From: Candidatus Saccharimonadota bacterium
Lineage (GTDB): Bacteria; Patescibacteriota; Saccharimonadia; Saccharimonadales; Saccharimonadaceae
Length of the DNA: 64,000 nt
Direction: 5' to 3'
Assembly (NCBI GenBank): GCA_009783235.1
Contig: WRHN01000003.1
Location: 1 to 64,000 of the forward strand
The notes under the pieces were generated by a model. The model made no database searches and had not been told where the DNA came from. It saw only the letters and a program-made list of their open reading frames with translations. The translations under genes and the position numbers were made by a program. How positions within the stretch are numbered: the first letter of the stretch is position 1; each line of letters starts with the position of its first letter. This document shows positions 2,454-29,310 of the stretch, in pieces.

Positions 2454-3902
2454 ATGGTAAAAAAATCACAAACCAAAAAAAGTACTCGTAAGACGTCCAC
2501 TAAAGGCCGTCGCACGAGTGCGCCAAAGAAAACTCAAATGCACCTGCATCATAAACTAGCGTGGGTGTTGTCAATAGGTGCTATTTTGACGCTGGGTGTA
2601 GCTACTCTCCCTAGTTGGGTAGGCAACGCTTGGGGACCAGCCAGTCGAGCGACTTTTACTGAGGCAAAACCAGCTGACTACATTACTTTTAACTCAATTA
2701 CTGACGACTCTAATTATGGCGATGAACGCAATTTTGTTCTGGTCAAAGATGACAATAATACTCAGGCGGGCGGTTTCGCTGACGTGGTTACCGTTCAAGA
2801 TGACCACACTTACTTGGTCAGAGTGTTCGTCCATAACAATGCGGCCGCCAATTTGAATTTGGTGGCGGAAAATGTTCGTTTGTCTGCTGGTATAACCACG
2901 GGATTGACTAAGAATGGTGAAATCGAGGTGCACATCAACTCTTCTAATGCTAATCCTAAAGAGGTTTGGGACGAGGTTAATTTAAAAGCTGATAAAGAGT
3001 TCCAGATAGCCTATGTTTCGGGCTCTGGCCGATATTACACTAACGCTAATGGTTTTTCCACCTTTGCACTTGGAGATGAAATAGTTACCAATAAAGACGG
3101 TGTTTTATTAGGCTACGATAAACTAGACGGTAAGATTCCAGGTTGCTATAAATACTCTGGTATCGCCACGTTTAAGGTAAAAGTTAACTTCGTCGGTACC
3201 CCGAATTTCACTGTGGACAAAACAGTTCGCGTTGAAGAGCAAGAAGACAAGACCTACCGCAAGATTGTAGAGGCAAAGCCTGGTGATACGGTTAAATACA
3301 AAATTGAATACAACAACACCGGTACAGTTACGCAGTCTGATGTTATCGCTAAAGATACTTTGCCTGGAGGCTTGGTTTTTCACAGTGGCAGCGTAGTTTT
3401 ACAGAACGGTAACTATCCGTCTGGCACACCACATACTGACTCACTGATGAACGCTAATGGTATAGACATTCAAAGTTACGCTCCTGGTGCTGGCGCTAAA
3501 ATTTATTTCACGGCTAAGGTTCCAGAAGATGCCGCATGTGGTACAGTTTTGACCAACTGGGGGATTATTAAGACCCAAAATGGTTCAAAAGAAGATTCAG
3601 CTGATGTTATCGTAAATTGTACACCGCCGCCAGAACAAGAATACTGCTTGCCGGGTGTTCCTGTGGGTGATGAGCGTTGTGAGCCAAAAACCGAATACTG
3701 CAAGCCGGGGATTCCCGTGGGCGATAAACTTTGCAACGAGAAGAGCTGCGAAGAAGACGGCACCTGCCCAGCAGAGATTGCAAAAACTGGCGCTGGCATC
3801 ACAATTTTCTTAGTAGTCATCGCTGCTGCGGCCGTTGTGTACCATCACTATTACGTCCAAAACAACAAACTTAAGAAAAAACCAGTTCATCGCAAGAAAT
3901 AA
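2454..3902 (+). CDS. Cell-surface protein with DUF11-type repeat domain and LPxTG-like C-terminal anchor
   Basis: This 482-residue protein begins with a very basic segment (K/R/T-rich, residues 1-33) and then a hydrophobic signal or anchor helix (about 34-58). The ectodomain includes a DUF11-like module (about 270-390, with the typical VKYKIEYNNTG and DTLPGGL motifs) found in bacterial surface adhesins. Two short Cys-containing repeats follow (about 397-440, each C-x-PG-x-PVGD). The C-terminus has the order of a sorting signal: an IAKTGAG motif, a hydrophobic helix, then a Lys/Arg tail. IAKTG resembles LPxTG or the LAxTG sites of class E sortases, so covalent wall attachment is possible. A Shine-Dalgarno GAAAGG precedes the ATG. 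No sortase gene is in the window. It probably belongs to one operon with the upstream gene. Confidence 0.75.
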   Translation: MVKKSQTKKSTRKTSTKGRRTSAPKKTQMHLHHKLAWVLSIGAILTLGVATLPSWVGNAWGPASRATFTEAKPADYITFNSITDDSNYGDERNFVLVKDDNNTQAGGFADVVTVQDDHTYLVRVFVHNNAAANLNLVAENVRLSAGITTGLTKNGEIEVHINSSNANPKEVWDEVNLKADKEFQIAYVSGSGRYYTNANGFSTFALGDEIVTNKDGVLLGYDKLDGKIPGCYKYSGIATFKVKVNFVGTPNFTVDKTVRVEEQEDKTYRKIVEAKPGDTVKYKIEYNNTGTVTQSDVIAKDTLPGGLVFHSGSVVLQNGNYPSGTPHTDSLMNANGIDIQSYAPGAGAKIYFTAKVPEDAACGTVLTNWGIIKTQNGSKEDSADVIVNCTPPPEQEYCLPGVPVGDERCEPKTEYCKPGIPVGDKLCNEKSCEEDGTCPAEIAKTGAGITIFLVVIAAAAVVYHHYYVQNNKLKKKPVHRKK

Positions 3903-3922
3903 ACACTGAACGTTAGAATAGA

Positions 3923-3946
3923 CCCCTTACTCTAGTAAGGGGTTTT
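3923..3946 (+). terminator. Rho-independent terminator
   Basis: An 8-bp stem (CCCCTTAC paired with GTAAGGGG, loop TCTA) is followed directly by TTTT, 20 nt after the stop codon of the surface-protein gene. Confidence 0.9.
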
Positions 3947-4006
3947 AACAAGCCAGTTTCACTGGGGTCGGCGCTATGCTAGAGTGCTGAGCGTCGCTGC
4001 AGAGCC

Positions 4007-4035
4007 TTGACTTTTTACCATAAGTGTGATACAAT
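4007..4035 (+). promoter_or_regulatory. Strong sigma70-type promoter of the 4201 gene cassette
   Basis: TTGACT (4007-4012), a 17-bp spacer and TACAAT (4030-4035) with an extended TG one base upstream. The predicted transcription start is about 4042, which coincides with the ATG of a 15-codon open frame. Confidence 0.85.
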
Positions 4036-4041
4036 AGGGGC

Positions 4042-4089
4042 ATGAGTTATGATTATAGCTCATCGTACCTTACAAGAATTTTACCTTAA
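4042..4089 (+). CDS. Candidate leader peptide (15 aa) MSYDYSSSYLTRILP
   Basis: This ATG lies 7 nt after the last base of the -10 box, the spacing seen at leaderless starts of housekeeping genes in this window. The 15-residue product has four Ser and three Tyr codons in its first nine positions and ends in Pro immediately before TAA. The stop is 10 nt upstream of a 17-bp hairpin in the leader of the membrane-protein gene at 4201. The arrangement resembles ribosome-mediated attenuation or arrest-peptide control. The peptide matches no family I know. Translation is inferred from position alone. Confidence 0.45.
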   Translation: MSYDYSSSYLTRILP

Positions 4090-4098
4090 TACCTCAGC

Positions 4099-4158
4099 GT
4101 TTTGTTCGCCGTTTTGATGATTTTTGCCTAAAAAAGTCGCCAAAATGGCGGATAAAAC
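4099..4158 (+). promoter_or_regulatory. Long leader hairpin (17-bp stem)
   Basis: Bases 4099-4115 pair with 4142-4158 along all 17 positions at the RNA level; 14 are Watson-Crick pairs and three are G-U. An inner U/A-rich stem (around 4121-4138) can extend the helix. There is no U-run after it, and it ends about 30 nt before the AGGAGG Shine-Dalgarno of the 4201 gene. It is therefore more likely a regulatory or stabilising structure than a simple terminator. Confidence 0.75.
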
Positions 4159-4200
4159 CAAAAGAATTTAGTCAAAACAATTCAACTAGGAGGTAGAAAA

Positions 4201-4614
4201 ATGTCAAACTTAATCATAGCGATTCTTGCCTTCACGGTGCTTTTTCTGGCAGGGCTAATGATCGCTTTTGCGGTGGGTTACTACCGCGAGGCGGTCTGGA
4301 CGAGAGACCGCAAAAATGGCACATACCATTTAGCAGTCTTAGTCAATTACAAAATTAAGATTGCCCTAGTGGTATACGCTGCAGTTGTTGCAGCCGCCAC
4401 ATTGTGGTTGTTGATTGTCATCTATACTGCGATGCGGTTGGACGAAGGAGGAGAAGCTCTCCTGTTCATGCCGCCTTTGGTGGCATATATAATGTATCAA
4501 TGTATGATGAGCGCAGCAAAAACTGCAGCCCGTCTGCAAACGCAGGATTACGATTATGAACCTAGGTTATTACGCCGTCACGTAGAGGACGGTCAGGTTT
4601 TCGTAATAAGGTAA
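4201..4614 (+). CDS. Small polytopic membrane protein, unknown function
   Basis: This 137-residue protein has hydrophobic helices at about 3-26 and 52-77 and a weaker one at about 86-104. A short basic loop lies between the first two, and the C-terminal 30 residues are polar. The start is supported by an AGGAGG Shine-Dalgarno about 5 nt upstream. The gene stands alone: it has its own consensus promoter, a leader with a possible leader peptide and a 17-bp hairpin, and its own nested-stem terminator that begins inside the stop codon. No family is recognised. The setting suggests a regulated accessory membrane protein. Confidence 0.75.
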   Translation: MSNLIIAILAFTVLFLAGLMIAFAVGYYREAVWTRDRKNGTYHLAVLVNYKIKIALVVYAAVVAAATLWLLIVIYTAMRLDEGGEALLFMPPLVAYIMYQCMMSAAKTAARLQTQDYDYEPRLLRRHVEDGQVFVIR

Positions 4615-22313: not shown

Positions 22314-23494
22314 CTTTTGATGAGCTGACGGCTGAAGAATTCACAAAATTCGCCCTAGCGCAGTCGAATGTTAGTTTTGCCCAGACAGCCGAATATGTTT
22401 TTCACGCTAGTCGCGACGGGGCAAAGACAGCGTTTTTGGGTGTCAGAAGTGATGACAGAATTGTTTTAGGCGGGCTCATGACATGGCCGTACGGATTTTC
22501 GGGCGCCAATTTTTATTGCGGCCCGATTGGTGACTTAGATCAAGAAAAAATACTGAGGGTTTTTGTTCAGGGGCTTAGGAAATGGTCTGGCCGACACGGC
22601 ATTAGCCATGTTAAATTAAATCCCATTGACATTATTCGAACTAGAGATGCCAGTGGTAAAATTTTGAACGAGAATTTGGCCGCGGAGAACAACCTCAAAA
22701 ATTGCGGCTTTAAAAAAACTGGAGCTAAAGTTACGCCGCATTTCGTTTATATTAAAAATCTTGCCAAATTCGATACGCTTGAGACGCTCTTTAAAAGTTT
22801 TTCGGCCAGCACGAAAGCGATGATAAATGGTGCTGAAAAAAACTGCATTAGTTTGAAAAAACTTACTCGCAAACAACTACCAAGACTAGAAAAGCTCATG
22901 GAAGATTCGGCTGCGCGACAAGATTTTAAGGCGCGCGGTGTATATTTTCAGGAGAGTTTGTTTGACACTTTTGCGCAGTCGCCGAATTTTGAAGTTGATT
23001 TTTTGGTGGCGGAAATGGACGTCAAAAAGCTGCAAAAATCTTACGAAAAAAGAATGCGCGAGCTGAAAAAAGCGATTCAAGTCGCAGGGTCAGAGGGAAT
23101 GCAGAACGAGCTCAATAGTCAGCTTGCGGGTTTGCGGTCTCGACAAAGTTTGTTGAGTGATGCGGGCGCTGACAAAGTTGACGTGGCGGCCGGGGTGTTT
23201 GTGAAGTCCTCACGCGAAACCGTTTATTTGTTTGCTGGTAATGATCCAAAGTATCTGAAATTTAACGCTATTTATTTGATGATTTGGCGCGAAATGCAGG
23301 AGGCTTTTGAGAATAAAGTTCCGCTTTTTAATTTTTATGGCATTGAAGGAAAATTTGACGGTAGCGATGGTATTTTGGGCTACAAAAAAGGCTTTAACGG
23401 CGTTGTTCAAGAATACCTAGGTCAATGGATTTTGGTGACTAATCCGTTGAAATATAACTCGGTGCGAGCGTTAAAGAAGTTACGTCGCGGTTGA
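22310..23494 (+). CDS. FemABX-family aminoacyl-tRNA:lipid II transferase
   Basis: A 394-residue protein of the FemABX/MurM group, which adds amino acids from aminoacyl-tRNA to the peptidoglycan stem peptide. The two GNAT-like lobes are separated by a charged helical arm (about 240-280, Lys/Glu/Arg-rich) characteristic of the family. C-terminal motifs are YLMIWREMQEAF, FNFYGIEGKFDGSDG and YKKGFNGVVQEYLG. It is translationally coupled to the DUF1653 gene. The end overlaps the convergent gene by 15 bp. The amino acid transferred cannot be told from sequence. Confidence 0.88.
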   Translation: MTFDELTAEEFTKFALAQSNVSFAQTAEYVFHASRDGAKTAFLGVRSDDRIVLGGLMTWPYGFSGANFYCGPIGDLDQEKILRVFVQGLRKWSGRHGISHVKLNPIDIIRTRDASGKILNENLAAENNLKNCGFKKTGAKVTPHFVYIKNLAKFDTLETLFKSFSASTKAMINGAEKNCISLKKLTRKQLPRLEKLMEDSAARQDFKARGVYFQESLFDTFAQSPNFEVDFLVAEMDVKKLQKSYEKRMRELKKAIQVAGSEGMQNELNSQLAGLRSRQSLLSDAGADKVDVAAGVFVKSSRETVYLFAGNDPKYLKFNAIYLMIWREMQEAFENKVPLFNFYGIEGKFDGSDGILGYKKGFNGVVQEYLGQWILVTNPLKYNSVRALKKLRRG

Positions 23495-25696
23495 AAAATC
23501 TTGCATTTGAGTATAATAAACACCCCAGTTATAAAAGTAGGTGGTCGTGGCGTCTAGTTTGCACTCTCGGCCGTCCGTGTCGAATGGATCGCCCTCGTCT
23601 TCCCAGGCGTAGGGTTTATTTTGCGGTCGATCGGGGCAGTTTTTAACGAAGGTTTTGTAAGCGTTAGACAGCGCCGCACCGTCTCTCGAAATATGACCTT
23701 TTGCAACCATGAAATTGTATGTTTCGTCGTATGCTTTGAAATCTGGCAGACCGAAAGCTAAGTTGCCAAACGGCGTGCAGGCAAAGCCGGCATCTTGATA
23801 GTCCTCGTCATCGCAGATGCTGTATTTTAAAACTGGGTCAGAAGCGGCGCCAACTTTATTAAAATTGTTTATTAACCCAAACTGTAAAATCATGCCGAGG
23901 TTACTCAATATTGACCAGCCAGAAGTCAGCCTGGCAAACTTTGGCGCTAGAGCGTGGACAATTGAGCCAAAGAAAGTATATTCCGAAGTGATGTCAAAGG
24001 GGCTGCGCAATGCACGCTCTTCCTCGGCGATCTGCAGGCGATAGGCGACGGTTTGCTGGTCTTGCGCGACGGCTTGCTCGATGCTCAGCGGTGCCAAACT
24101 ATTGGCTTTGCCAACGTCGGCGTACATGGCTTCGGCTCCAGCAAAGAACATGTCGCCGTTGTTTTCTTTGCTGAGCTCGCTGGGCATTTGGCCGCCCAGG
24201 ACGTTTTGCAGGTAGATTGGCAGCAGCGCCACAGAAGCTTCAAAAGTCATCGCTGCCCAGAATCGGCCACTTTTCATGGTGTTTTTGACGATGGTCGAGA
24301 TGTTATTTTTAAGAAAAGTCATAGCGGCCTCTCTAGATACTGTCGAAGCGATTTTTACACCACCGCCAGTGAAGAACGCGGCCAGCCCGCCCAATACCAT
24401 GTCGCCGAATTGAACTATGGGATTGCGCACAAAACCGCAAGTACCGCGAATATTAGTGATGCCTACAAAAGCTAGCGTCGCGGCCAGCCCGCCCAACAGC
24501 CCGCGAAACGGCCCGTTGCCGCCCAGGCTAAACGAAGCAGCGCTCTCAGACAGCGGTCCCGCGTCGCCATACACGGCATAATTGCCGCCATAACTGTTCA
24601 GCGCGCTAGTGCCGTCAGCGTCAAAATCAGAGAAAAACTTGCCGGCAGCTTCGGTATCCTGCATGCTCACTTCGCCACCGTCTTTGATGGCGTAAAGCAG
24701 GTTGATCATAGCAAAGGCAGCGGGGATCATCCAGGCTTTGCGAATAGTTTTGGCGCCCAGGTTGGCAGCACGAGCTCCGTTGTAGAGACCGCAGAAATAA
24801 TTCGGCACGCCCCCTGACAAAGAAACGGCATCATGAGTAGCCTGGCCAATACGCTGAGCGACGCCCGGGTTTGATTCGCGCATGGCGCGCTCGACTTGTT
24901 TGGTGGCCGCGTCGTCAATTTTGCTCAGCTTAGCAGCGCGCTTAGTAACGACATCGTCAAGTGCCTTGGCTATGTCGTCAACATTATTGCCTTTTAAATT
25001 CTTGGCTTTGCTGAGTTGGTGCCATTGACGCATTTTACTCCAGGCTTTGCCAGCTTGTGATTGATACCTGGCATTGTAGACGCCCTTCATGCTTTGGCGC
25101 AATTTGGCACTGTTGGCCAACTCCTTTTCATAATTAGAGGCGGTCAGCACCTTGCCCTCGATTTCTATGCGATCAATTGACATTTTGCCGCCACCGTCAG
25201 TTGGTTTAATTTCAGTGCCGCCAGAATACATTTTCGCTCCAGCGCTCTCGAGGCGTGTGAGCTCTTTTTGACTGAATTGTTTCCATTGACAATTGGCACT
25301 GCTGCAAGTTCCAGCGCCCAGCCGCGTGGTAACACTTGAATTGTAGTTACGAGCTAGAGCTGCGCTGATGGGGTCGCCGTATTTTTCTATTGCGCCGAGC
25401 ACAGTGCCAAAAATTGAACTTGGGAACAGCATCGATCCGATAACTATCAGACCAACAAAACCAACGCTAAAACCGATCGTCTTATTGCGGCGTTTTTTTG
25501 CGCCGACGCTTTTGACGAAGTCGTTCATTTTGCGTGAGCGGCTACTGGTGTGAGTTGACCATTTCGCGCCACCACGTTCGCGTTCAGGCAGAGTCTGCGA
25601 TTGATCAGGCGCGCCGTCAGGATTAGTCTCGGCCGCTAGCAACCCGTGCTCATCTTTGGGCAGGGAATCGTACCAGGCGTCTTCGTTTTTTGACAT
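23480..25696 (-). CDS. Large secretion-system-type membrane protein
   Basis: A 738-residue protein. The N-terminal 75 residues are polar and basic, followed by a membrane helix (about 75-95). A Lys/Ala-rich helical domain (about 180-290) follows, then several hydrophobic segments (around 305-335, 395-415, 435-450 and 480-500) and a Cys-containing C-terminal domain (CDDEDYQDAGFAC, NCPDRP and others). This resembles the large membrane proteins found with VirB6/TrbL-like components in Saccharibacteria-type secretion loci, although no domain is certain. It lies 14 bp downstream of another such gene and is probably co-transcribed. No VirB4-type ATPase is in the window. Confidence 0.65.
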   Translation of the reverse strand: MSKNEDAWYDSLPKDEHGLLAAETNPDGAPDQSQTLPERERGGAKWSTHTSSRSRKMNDFVKSVGAKKRRNKTIGFSVGFVGLIVIGSMLFPSSIFGTVLGAIEKYGDPISAALARNYNSSVTTRLGAGTCSSANCQWKQFSQKELTRLESAGAKMYSGGTEIKPTDGGGKMSIDRIEIEGKVLTASNYEKELANSAKLRQSMKGVYNARYQSQAGKAWSKMRQWHQLSKAKNLKGNNVDDIAKALDDVVTKRAAKLSKIDDAATKQVERAMRESNPGVAQRIGQATHDAVSLSGGVPNYFCGLYNGARAANLGAKTIRKAWMIPAAFAMINLLYAIKDGGEVSMQDTEAAGKFFSDFDADGTSALNSYGGNYAVYGDAGPLSESAASFSLGGNGPFRGLLGGLAATLAFVGITNIRGTCGFVRNPIVQFGDMVLGGLAAFFTGGGVKIASTVSREAAMTFLKNNISTIVKNTMKSGRFWAAMTFEASVALLPIYLQNVLGGQMPSELSKENNGDMFFAGAEAMYADVGKANSLAPLSIEQAVAQDQQTVAYRLQIAEEERALRSPFDITSEYTFFGSIVHALAPKFARLTSGWSILSNLGMILQFGLINNFNKVGAASDPVLKYSICDDEDYQDAGFACTPFGNLAFGLPDFKAYDETYNFMVAKGHISRDGAALSNAYKTFVKNCPDRPQNKPYAWEDEGDPFDTDGRECKLDATTTYFYNWGVYYTQMQDFSTAT

Positions 25697-25710
25697 GATT
25701 TGGTCGCTTA

Positions 25711-27972
25711 CTAGGTTGCTTTCCAGTTGCCGTGGTCGCGCATATGTTCTAGCTGCGCGCGTTGGTCGCTGTTGAGATCTAGGCTACGATTAGCCAATAT
25801 GGCCTCCGCGCGCGCGGCATCGACGTCTAGAAGATTGGTCATATCTCTTGCTGATTGCTTCGCTATATCAGCATCCGTCAGACCTATTTCAACTGTGTGC
25901 ACCATCTCGTTTATATCGTAACCCTTGGAGTTGGTAGCAAATTGGAAAATTTGGGCGTCTTTAACAAAGTCGTCTTTATTCATGGCGATTGCGCCCTTAA
26001 TTTTGTTGTCAAATGCTGAATTGGTTGCGCCGATGCTGTGTTGCGCCATAGCTTGCTTGAGCGCCTTGCGTCCGCCACCGGTTTTCCCTAGTTTATTGGT
26101 CATGATAATATTGGCCTTCGCAAAATCGCCAGCCCTAGAGGCTTTAACAAACTCGCCTTGGTAGTAGCTAATTTGGTCAGGAAAGGACATGCCGGCAGTT
26201 TCTTTATTGAGCAGCAGCTCGTAGCCCTTGGCGTAATCTTCATCGAGCTTATTGGCGATACTAGTGCCATGAGCGCGGCGCCAATCTTGGCGATTGGGCA
26301 TATTGCGCAGCGATCGTTTGCGCTCGCCCAACTTGTAGCCGCCAGCTTTCAGGCCCTTGTCGGTCTCGGTTTTTTTGGCATAATACTGACCAACGCCAGA
26401 TTCTTTCATGCGCTTGTCAGCCAGACTCTTAGCGCCGGAGTAGCCCTTGTCGGTCATGCCTTCAATCTTTTGGCCTAGTTTACCAGTGGCAGAAACCGCG
26501 CCTTTCATGATACCGGGCACTAAAATCAGCGGCAAAATAGCGGCGGCCGAAGCAGCCATGGCCAAAAATGCTCCTGTTGCGCTGCCAGCCGAGGCAGTGG
26601 CTACGTTCATCAAAACAGATCCAGCTAGTTTGGAGCCGCCAAAAACCAATGCGACAATTGGGTACAAAAATAGCAGTTTATAAAACAGCCCCCACCATTT
26701 CTTAAATAACCCTTCGGTGTTGGGCAGAGCCATGGCGGCAAAAGCTAGCGGTGAGATAACTATTAAGACAATGATCAGCGCAGAACGTAGTACCAGAGCA
26801 AGTAAAATTGCTAAAATAGCCACAATGGCACCGAGCACGATAGGCAGCAAGAACATTAAGATGGCCCAGCCAATTGGCGCTAAGCCGCCGGCCGAAAAGA
26901 TCGCCACGCCGCCGATTATGGCGGTGCCTGCTAGGATAGAGCCAGTAAAGTCGCCGAAGTTGTTGGCGTTGCCAGTTGATAGGTCGCCGATGACGGGGAC
27001 GCTCCAGTTGCTAGGAACGTTGTGGTTGACGGTTTGGGCACTCATGCCGCTAAAGAAGCCAGGGATCGATCGCCCAATAATGTTGACCACATCTACCATG
27101 GCAGCGCAGGCGTAAAACGCCAAGTTAAGCGCTACAGCGGCGATTAATAGTTTAGGCATGTATTTTTTCAGGGTGTAATTGGGCAAGAAACCAGGAATAG
27201 CTTGGGCGATGATGACAACCAGAAAGATAATGGCTAGGGCGATGTTGGCGACGCTGAGGAACTTGCCGTAAACTTCGCCGACGCCGTTGGTTGCGCTCTC
27301 GGTGAAAATAGAAACAGGGGTTTCTAAGATGTCCTCGACCACATTGTAGGCAGCGTCAACACCTTTGGACACCGCCAAGAGAATTGGGCAGATAGCCCAG
27401 CCGACGTAGGGAACTACGCAAGTAGTGTCTCCAGTGTTAGTGGTTGGGTTAGCGGGAGTGGTGTTGACGACGTTTGCGCCGTTCTGTTTGGCCCAGCGTC
27501 GCGCTTCGTCCCAGCCAGCTTTGCAGGGGCCGTAACCAGCTGCGCCGCTATAGCGCTCGCAATAGTTGTTGACACCCATGTTCTTGGCGCCTTCTTGGCA
27601 GATTTTGGCTTCGCTAGTGTTGGTGCCGTATTTGTTGTTGCACCAACTCTCTACGCCGGAAGCTGTGTAGATGTTGGCGTTGGCCTGTCCTGGCGGTGTG
27701 GCGTTTTGTCCGAGTTTGGACATTTGGCCAACATAGCATGGGTCGTAAGCAGCCTTGCCGACGTATTGATCGCAGTAGGTGTCATCAGTGGCTCGGGTGT
27801 AAGCTTCGTTGCAGAGTTTGTATTCGGGGCTGTTAGTATTGGAATAAGCCGTATCACAGCCGGCGGCATAGACGGGCCGATTGAGCAGGAGTGTTGAGCC
27901 CAGAAGGCTCAAAACTAGCGCAAAAACTGGCAATAGCAAAGCCCAGCGGAGGTTTTTTCTCTGGTTTTTCAT
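25711..27972 (-). CDS. TrbL/VirB6-like polytopic membrane protein with Cys-rich ectodomain
   Basis: A 753-residue protein. A signal peptide (about 1-37, ending near VYAAGCD) precedes a secreted region with two related Cys-rich repeats (CDxAY...CNEAY...CDQYVG...CYVG, and WCNNKYG...CQEGA...CERYSG...CKAGW). About seven membrane helices follow (around 195-500), with the Gly/Ala-rich style of TrbL/VirB6 channel proteins. The C-terminal 230 residues are a charged cytoplasmic domain rich in Lys, Arg and Asp. It is the first gene of a two-gene unit. A role in DNA or protein transfer across the envelope is inferred. Confidence 0.7.
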   Translation of the reverse strand: MKNQRKNLRWALLLPVFALVLSLLGSTLLLNRPVYAAGCDTAYSNTNSPEYKLCNEAYTRATDDTYCDQYVGKAAYDPCYVGQMSKLGQNATPPGQANANIYTASGVESWCNNKYGTNTSEAKICQEGAKNMGVNNYCERYSGAAGYGPCKAGWDEARRWAKQNGANVVNTTPANPTTNTGDTTCVVPYVGWAICPILLAVSKGVDAAYNVVEDILETPVSIFTESATNGVGEVYGKFLSVANIALAIIFLVVIIAQAIPGFLPNYTLKKYMPKLLIAAVALNLAFYACAAMVDVVNIIGRSIPGFFSGMSAQTVNHNVPSNWSVPVIGDLSTGNANNFGDFTGSILAGTAIIGGVAIFSAGGLAPIGWAILMFLLPIVLGAIVAILAILLALVLRSALIIVLIVISPLAFAAMALPNTEGLFKKWWGLFYKLLFLYPIVALVFGGSKLAGSVLMNVATASAGSATGAFLAMAASAAAILPLILVPGIMKGAVSATGKLGQKIEGMTDKGYSGAKSLADKRMKESGVGQYYAKKTETDKGLKAGGYKLGERKRSLRNMPNRQDWRRAHGTSIANKLDEDYAKGYELLLNKETAGMSFPDQISYYQGEFVKASRAGDFAKANIIMTNKLGKTGGGRKALKQAMAQHSIGATNSAFDNKIKGAIAMNKDDFVKDAQIFQFATNSKGYDINEMVHTVEIGLTDADIAKQSARDMTNLLDVDAARAEAILANRSLDLNSDQRAQLEHMRDHGNWKAT

Positions 27973-28054: not shown

Positions 28055-28083
28055 TTGACTTATTAATATGTATATGCTATAAT
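28055..28083 (+). promoter_or_regulatory. Full-consensus promoter of the 28391 module
   Basis: TTGACT (28055-28060), 17-bp spacer, TATAAT (28078-28083) plus an extended TG. Transcription should begin near 28090. Confidence 0.9.
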
Positions 28084-28088
28084 GCTGG

Positions 28089-28382
28089 AACAGAGTCAAG
28101 CACTCTGTTGTACCTTATCAATTCTGTTGTTTTAAAACGGCTACTTAGGCCGTGTTTAGCGGTTGGGTCGAGCCAATAATTGTTGGTTGGCCCTGACTGC
28201 TAAACACAAGCGCAAGTGTTTGGCCTGGGAGGTTTTTCCTCAGTCAGTCTCGGATGCCCATGCCTGTGGGTGAGAACGAACGAGAATACTATGGTGTCCG
28301 AGCGTTCGTTTTCTAGAGAAAGAAAATTTCTTGCAAAATATTTAGCCCCGGGCAGGGCTGAAGAGACTCCCACGAAAGGGGA
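28089..28382 (+). promoter_or_regulatory. Long structured 5' leader with a pseudoknot (candidate riboswitch or cis-RNA)
   Basis: About 300 nt between promoter and gene hold no ORF but many stems. AACAGAGT pairs with ACTCTGTT at the 5' end (28089-28109), ACGGC with GCCGT (28137-28153), GTTTAGC with GCTAAAC (28154-28205), and AGCCC with GGGCT (28344-28359). CTCGGA (28249-28254) pairs with TCCGAG (28297-28302), while AACGAACG (28275-28282) pairs with CGTTCGTT (28303-28310). These interleave as an H-type pseudoknot with abutting 3' arms. Near the gene, TCCC (28368-28371) can pair with GGGA (28379-28382), which masks the Shine-Dalgarno. No known riboswitch consensus is recognised. Confidence 0.65.
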
Positions 28383-28390
28383 TGATTAAT

Positions 28391-29200
28391 ATGTCGATTA
28401 CTATAAGAGGAATTAATGGGCCAGTTGGCCCCGGCGTTTACAGCTTGGTGTTCCCAGGTGTGGTATGCACTGCAAACCTTGATTTGTATCTTGTTGGTAA
28501 TACCAGTAATGATACAAAATTAAAACAAGATACCACCGACGGCCGCAAGGCTAAGCTGACTGTAAGTCAGCACGAGCAAGGGCCGTTGACGATCATCGTG
28601 CAGGAAGACATTCCTGCGGCTGGCGGCAATCCGCAAGGGGCCGAAGTCGCCGAATTGATGGTAGAGATTAAAGGCTCAGACACCGCAACGAGCGGAGACG
28701 GAGAGATATCTCTTGATAACATCAAGAAGAAAATCTCTGACGGCAAGAATCGCCCTTGGCTGTTTGTCATTTTGGGCGTCCTAGCGGCAATCTTAGCTGG
28801 CGGCCTCTTCGGCAGCTGGGCCACCGCAGGCTTCTTCTCAGAGGCTACGTCGTCCGTAGAGGCGATGAAGTCTCTGACACCAGAGGCTTACGAAGCCCTA
28901 AACGCACCAGGTCTTTACAACGCCTGGAATGGATGGCTGTGGGTCGCCGTGATTTTTGTATCCATTGTGATAACGCTAAAGGCGTTGTCGAAAACTGGCG
29001 GGAAACCGCGAGATTTCTTCGCTCACTGCGCCACGATCCTGACGGCTACAGCTGCGGTGTTTGCTATTAAGAATCTCTTGATAGCCATCTTCCACGGTCT
29101 GCCTTGGAGTTTGCTGCCGCTCCCGCCGCTGATTGTGGCAATTTCCCTGCTTGCAGTCACTTTTTTCTTAGTAAATAAATACTGGAAAAAAGTGGCCTAG
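28391..29200 (+). CDS. Four-helix membrane protein with N-terminal soluble domain, unknown function
   Basis: The ATG at 28391 is preferred over the ATG at 28382 because AAAGGGG ends at 28381, which is a normal distance only for 28391. Residues 1-118 form a beta-rich soluble domain (PGVYSLVFPGVVCTANLDLY, LTIIVQEDIPA). Membrane helices lie at about 122-145, 181-198, 210-233 and 243-262. No family is recognised. The gene is the only protein of a self-contained module with a consensus promoter, a 300-nt folded leader and a nested terminator. That suggests tight regulation. Confidence 0.75.
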   Translation: MSITIRGINGPVGPGVYSLVFPGVVCTANLDLYLVGNTSNDTKLKQDTTDGRKAKLTVSQHEQGPLTIIVQEDIPAAGGNPQGAEVAELMVEIKGSDTATSGDGEISLDNIKKKISDGKNRPWLFVILGVLAAILAGGLFGSWATAGFFSEATSSVEAMKSLTPEAYEALNAPGLYNAWNGWLWVAVIFVSIVITLKALSKTGGKPRDFFAHCATILTATAAVFAIKNLLIAIFHGLPWSLLPLPPLIVAISLLAVTFFLVNKYWKKVA

Positions 29201-29220
29201 CGCCCAAAAACAACAGAATC

Positions 29221-29310
29221 AGCCTTGAAGTAATTTAATGCAGAAGATTTTGCCCCTACCGTTTCTGACGGTACGCAATCTCTAAACATTCACACTTCAA
29301 GGCTTTTTCT
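29221..29310 (+). terminator. Large nested-stem terminator
   Basis: An 11-bp outer stem (AGCCTTGAAGT 29221-29231 with ACTTCAAGGCT 29294-29304) is followed by TTTTCT. It encloses AGATTTTGC/GCAATCT (29245-29281) and TACCGT/ACGGTA (29257-29273). The 62-nt enclosed region is unusually long for a terminator, and a processed 3' RNA is possible. Confidence 0.8.

Follow-up and report, generated by a model that had tools for sequence, protein, structure and literature searches.

The roughly 300 nt that precede a membrane-protein gene in the DNA analysed here (64 kb at full length, termed the window) appear to encode a real, uncatalogued and narrowly distributed structured leader with two competing folds, which is probably cis-regulatory. 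Comparison with the only homologous locus found, L005 (JAISBI010000011.1), which belongs to another genus of the same family, shows that the leader, its predicted architecture and two mutually exclusive predicted pairings are conserved in both genomes. We regard it as fairly probable that this element is a structured 5' leader that acts in cis on an mRNA with a single gene and has a two-state fold that sets translation.

The window is part of a 0.68-Mb genome in six contigs. Approximately 410 non-coding bases separate a divergent gene (25711-27972, - strand) from the gene of a 269-codon membrane protein (28391-29200, + strand), which is presumed to be the controlled gene. The divergent gene may be virB6-like; it was named from its appearance and has no Pfam or NCBIfam match. 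Two long genes of 738 and 753 codons occupy positions 23480-27972 on the - strand and show no significant Pfam or NCBIfam matches; relatives of the second, 753-codon gene are present in 375 of the 394 family genomes, often in at least two copies. A promoter-like site with an extended -10, TTGACT-17-TGCTATAAT, is located at 28055-28083 (+ strand), and transcription is expected to start near 28090. The -10 element (TATAAT) is preceded by TG, and TTGACT-17-TATAAT matches 11 of 12 consensus positions, in line with the strong promoter that had been proposed ahead of the leader. L005 harbors a promoter-like site, TTGACT-17-TGCTACAAT, at the equivalent place. Downstream of the membrane-protein gene, a long terminator-like hairpin followed by a T run spans 29221-29309 (+ strand; z -5.2); it is branched and has an 11-bp base, AGCCUUGAAGU/ACUUCAAGGCU. 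A similar terminator-like hairpin with a T run, different in sequence, is found at the same place after the gene in L005. The presence of this hairpin 3' of the gene in both genomes indicates that leader and gene form what looks like one transcript.

The leader as a whole (28088-28390, + strand) has a fold energy of -122 kcal/mol, corresponding to a z-score of -5.6 to -6.6 with respect to dinucleotide shuffles, none of which folded as well. It ranked first among the 852 300-nt segments of the 64-kb stretch when composition was corrected for by regression. For the leader of L005 the z-score was -8.0 to -8.5. In both genomes folding of the sense strand is much stronger than that of the opposite strand, which indicates that the leader RNA is read on the + strand and speaks against an opposite-strand structured RNA. 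The coding sequence that follows, of the membrane-protein gene (28801-29250, + strand), also shows unusually strong folding of the sense strand, with a residual z of -3.2 to -3.7.

The absence of a gene from these roughly 300 nt, as originally predicted, was corroborated: the + strand of the leader contains no open reading frame of more than 57 codons and none that is a convincing gene. A small coding gene inside the leader was also rejected by comparison with L005, since the short reading frames share no frame between the two. Nor does the RNA match a known class, in agreement with the original prediction. A covariance-model search of the window with Rfam 15 yielded no match at the gathering threshold and only chance-level matches, far below the cut-off, at a relaxed threshold. 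No tRNA was found in the window. The leader is similar in length to tmRNA and the large housekeeping RNAs, which likewise contain pseudoknots, but it matches none of them. A tmRNA was ruled out by the lack of a match to RF00023 and because the tmRNA of this genome is encoded elsewhere (contig C1, 118259-118668; 59 bits, above the cut-off).

The gene order of L005 is that of the window, with a divergent virB6-like gene, the leader, the membrane-protein gene, tilS and, further on, ftsH. The encoded proteins share 75% (FtsH), 61% (TilS), 48% (virB6-like) and 34-38% (membrane protein) identity with those of the window. At this degree of protein divergence, unconstrained intergenic DNA is expected to be near random. 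Nevertheless, the two loci have in common the promoter and two motifs, TCTGTTGTTTTAA of 13 nt and ACGAACGAGAATAC of 14 nt. The motifs UCUGUUGUUUUAA and ACGAACGAGAAUAC are identical in both leaders, and the remaining leader sequence has diverged. When each leader was folded separately, the same architecture was obtained from mostly different sequences. Thus both structure and position of the leader are conserved in the single homologue found.

The dominant predicted fold consists of a 5' hairpin (P1), a hairpin of about 25 bp (P3) and a three-way junction formed by P4, P5 and P6. The predicted 5' end is formed by P1, a hairpin of 8 bp (28089-28109; AACAGAGU/ACUCUGUU in the window, GUAUGGCU/AGUCAUAC in L005) that exceeds shuffled sequences with p 0.008 in the window and 0.0035 in L005. 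The identical motif UCUGUUGUUUUAA (28123-28135) forms the 5' side of the small hairpin P2, in which 28126-28131 pair with 28136-28141 and which starts within the conserved motif UGUUGUUUUAA. P3 (28152-28207) comprises 25 bp in the window and 27 bp in L005. The closing stem of the junction, P4, comprises 20 bp in the window and 23 bp in L005. Its 5' strand (28246-28271) is divided into an outer part (28246-28251) and an inner part (28256-28271), which face the outer segment GAGACU (28363-28368) and the inner segment 28345-28358 of the 3' strand (28345-28368). As two-strand duplexes, P3 and P4 surpassed in strength every one of 2000 shuffles, in the window as well as in L005 (P4, p 0.0005 in both). 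When P4 was scored on a plain sequence alignment, standard pairs made up 90% of its cells, compared to 35-60% for slid versions, and three pairs are changed on both sides between window and L005. A column-shuffle control of P4 reached the same level in 67 of 500 cases, which is not significant. As there are only two sequences, the case for P4 rests on position, strength and differing sequence rather than on formal covariation.

P4 encloses the two remaining arms of the junction. P5 (28272-28313; GAGAACGAACG/CGUUCGUUUUC, the ACGAACG hairpin) holds the motif ACGAACGAGAAUAC at 28276-28289, of which all 14 nt are identical in L005; all eight counted pairs of P5 are kept there, one A-U being replaced by G-C. 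P6 (28316-28332) is an A/U-rich hairpin, GAGAAA/UUUCUU, with GAUU-GAGA/UCUU-AAUC as its counterpart in L005. Strong sequence conservation is limited to the 14-nt stem-loop motif of P5 and to UCUGUUGUUUUAA, which looks single-stranded. This pattern would also suit a leader in which an RNA-binding protein, perhaps the product of the gene's own regulator, recognizes P5 with ACGAACGAGAAUAC and alters translation or mRNA stability. No candidate for such a protein was found, and at the level of sequence its site would look like that of a ligand; we consider this explanation unlikely.

The two-state leader that we favour is based on a second structure, a pseudoknot between the loop of P5 and a strand outside it. 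The interleaved pairs CTCGGA (28249-28254)/TCCGAG (28297-28302) and AACGAACG (28275-28282)/CGTTCGTT (28303-28310) lie where the original prediction had placed them, and their 3' arms abut. The 5' arm, CUCGGA in the RNA, overlaps outer P4 and is situated just 5' of inner P4, and the 3' arm UCCGAG lies in the P5 loop next to the P5 3' strand. In L005 the counterpart arms, UCUUGUGU and ACACAAGA, occupy the same two places with a different sequence. Pairing of a loop with an outside strand, as is characteristic of H-type pseudoknots, is therefore kept in the homologue, in a comparison of two sequences; an extra hairpin or the P4 strand lies between the arms. In a geometry-restricted shuffle test, p was about 0.001-0.005 for L005 and 0.003-0.01 for the window, where the pairing had been chosen after the fact. 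The test on L005 is independent, because the geometry had been fixed by the window. An energy-based test gave p 0.008-0.017.

The long P4 stem, which encloses P5 and P6, was absent from the original prediction and competes with the pseudoknot. Because they share a strand, the pseudoknot excludes outer P4 in both genomes, so that each leader has two mutually exclusive predicted structures. Opening outer P4 costs about 10 kcal/mol in the window and 12 kcal/mol in L005, and the pseudoknot duplex returns 7-8 kcal/mol. With the usual pseudoknot penalty applied, we infer that the P4 state is favoured as the ground state, with a margin of roughly 5-10 kcal/mol. The pseudoknot fold originally predicted thus recurs with a different sequence in L005, but as an alternative to the P4 junction, which is the predicted ground state. 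These energies bear on the possibility that the structure only stabilizes the mRNA or sets a basal level of translation, without switching, and that the pseudoknot is accidental. The high stability of P3 and P4, the hairpin at the 5' end and the competition of the pseudoknot against a stronger stem in both genomes would be in line with this. However, the pseudoknot reappears in the same geometry with different sequence, as six Watson-Crick pairs in the window and eight in L005, and a structure without switching is a serious but somewhat unlikely alternative. In the two-state reading, the pseudoknot strands are transcribed ahead of the P4 3' strand, and so the pseudoknot could form first. Mutually exclusive pairings that are kept through sequence change appear switch-like.

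The Shine-Dalgarno sequence AAAGGGG is located at 28375-28381 (+ strand). It had been suggested that the last stem of the leader masks this site. The possible mask, CCC (28369-28371) with GGG (28378-28380), is weak, consists of three pairs with a pairing probability of 0.41 and is not conserved in L005. For the Shine-Dalgarno against the strand 5' of P4, p was 0.66 in the window (not significant) and 0.055 in L005 (marginal). Sequestration of the Shine-Dalgarno in one of two states, by which a translational riboswitch is recognized, was not found. The layout of such a riboswitch, as originally proposed, therefore stands with regard to the structured leader and the recurrence of its fold in L005, but not with regard to the Shine-Dalgarno mask. 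P4 ends 9 nt ahead of GGGG in the window, and in L005 the gap to GGAGG is about 5 nt. The conserved position of P4 puts the end of the stem within reach of a loading ribosome, and control through the nearness of P4 to the Shine-Dalgarno is possible.

In the mechanism that we propose, transcription would start near 28090 and yield a unit of promoter, leader, membrane-protein gene and terminator. P1, P2 and the long P3 would fold first in the emerging RNA, followed by P5, after which CUCGGA could pair with the P5 loop to form the pseudoknot. Once 28345-28368 had been transcribed, P4 could form and its outer half would take the CUCGGA strand from the pseudoknot. Only 5-9 nt would then separate the base of the closed three-way junction from the Shine-Dalgarno. 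Which of the two states prevails might depend on a small molecule, a protein, temperature or folding kinetics alone, and would in turn determine how readily ribosomes load onto the membrane-protein gene.

A small molecule or an ion would be the signal if the leader were a translational riboswitch of a new class, a specific form of the two-state leader in which the P5 loop and the pseudoknot bind and outer P4 with the Shine-Dalgarno is the output. Such a riboswitch would be consistent with loop nucleotides that are conserved next to stems of changing sequence, with the pseudoknot and with a competing stem near the Shine-Dalgarno. However, no conserved mask of the Shine-Dalgarno is present, the leader was found in two genomes only whereas most known riboswitch classes are more widely distributed, and nothing known about the gene's function suggests a ligand. 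The membrane protein has no relative in Pfam, NCBIfam or the PDB, searches that thus gave no ligand hint, and only insignificant matches in PHROG. Its structure model is of low confidence (pLDDT 47); it shows N-terminal strands and, towards the C terminus, long helices that would fit a membrane domain. As the function of the gene provides no ligand, a riboswitch is one possibility among several, and we regard sensing of a metabolite or ion as doubtful.

Compact H-type pseudoknots of 50-80 nt with the Shine-Dalgarno inside the fold are known from the translational riboswitches preQ1-II and SAM-II. As in these, the loop of a stem in the leader pairs with a strand that lies outside the stem and near the ribosome binding site, but its pseudoknot lies about 75 nt upstream of the Shine-Dalgarno and would act, if at all, through P4. 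Orphan riboswitch candidates and cis-regulatory leader motifs have been described from comparative genomics (PMC7266159, PMC8632094, PMC11109978). As far as the available parts of these papers describe them, the orphan candidates resemble the leader in being structured, conserved single-gene leaders with conserved loop nucleotides, alternative pairings and no known trigger. In contrast to them, the leader is known from only two genomes, has no Rfam family and is larger, its hairpin P3 comprising 25 bp and its junction stem 20 bp. Titles and abstracts of open-licence papers retrieved by text searches on riboswitches or structured RNAs in Saccharibacteria, Patescibacteria or the candidate phyla radiation describe no such RNA, and a perspective from 2024 mentions riboswitches solely as genetic tools that might be used in these bacteria (PMC11665869). 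That a P5-loop pseudoknot competing with outer P4 gates translation of the membrane protein as a new riboswitch class of ultrasmall, Patescibacteria-like bacteria is a tentative and rather unlikely reading. A conserved switch-like leader would offer a tangible starting point for the study of gene regulation in these bacteria, which are difficult to cultivate, and a ligand, if one exists, would point to the role of the membrane protein.

Searches for further copies detected leader and gene in the two genomes only. The membrane protein found a single relative, in the L005 genome, among 151 and then 198 family genomes; its profile detected only the window genome and the L005 genome among the 198 and nothing in viral contigs, and a single-sequence query detected nothing in GTDB genome contigs or plasmids. 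The leader DNA has no further copies in the host genome and no match in phages, and BLAST against 151 family genomes returned only a promoter-sized fragment of 24 nt in one other genome (G058). A single-sequence covariance model (R1) was too weak to recover L005 reliably. The custom covariance-model search that had been suggested for homologous leaders was carried out with a two-sequence model (R2) on 394 family and 295 order genomes; it recovered window and L005 but no further homologues. A weak R2 match in G580 (E 0.049) was discarded, as it lacks the two motifs. In a motif scan of the 394 family genomes many single-motif matches occurred by chance, and among the 30 loci examined both motifs were present only at the one already known. 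The two-motif pattern had 13 matches in GTDB genome contigs, which is about the chance estimate and of which only the already known locus belongs to a Patescibacteria record, and none in viral contigs. A virB6-like gene is present in 13 other regions that were compared, none of which has tilS or the membrane protein alongside.

In the genomes searched, RNA and gene always occurred together and neither was detected on its own. Such exclusive linkage favors a role in cis. It also bears on the possibility that the leader, with its own promoter and a large compact fold of about 280 nt, is a separate trans-acting non-coding RNA gene that merely lies upstream of the membrane-protein gene. In addition to the linkage, the short distance to the Shine-Dalgarno is fixed in both genomes and no terminator-like site is present on the + strand between P4 and the gene, and a separate RNA gene is distinctly improbable.

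Elsewhere in the window, the region 3901-4200 (+ strand) is among the most strongly folded stretches (residual z about -3.9). It contains a terminator-like hairpin after an open reading frame that ends at 3902, and a promoter-like TTGACT..TACAAT near 4008-4036, which is followed by a leader of about 160 nt before a small membrane-protein-like open reading frame (4201-4614).
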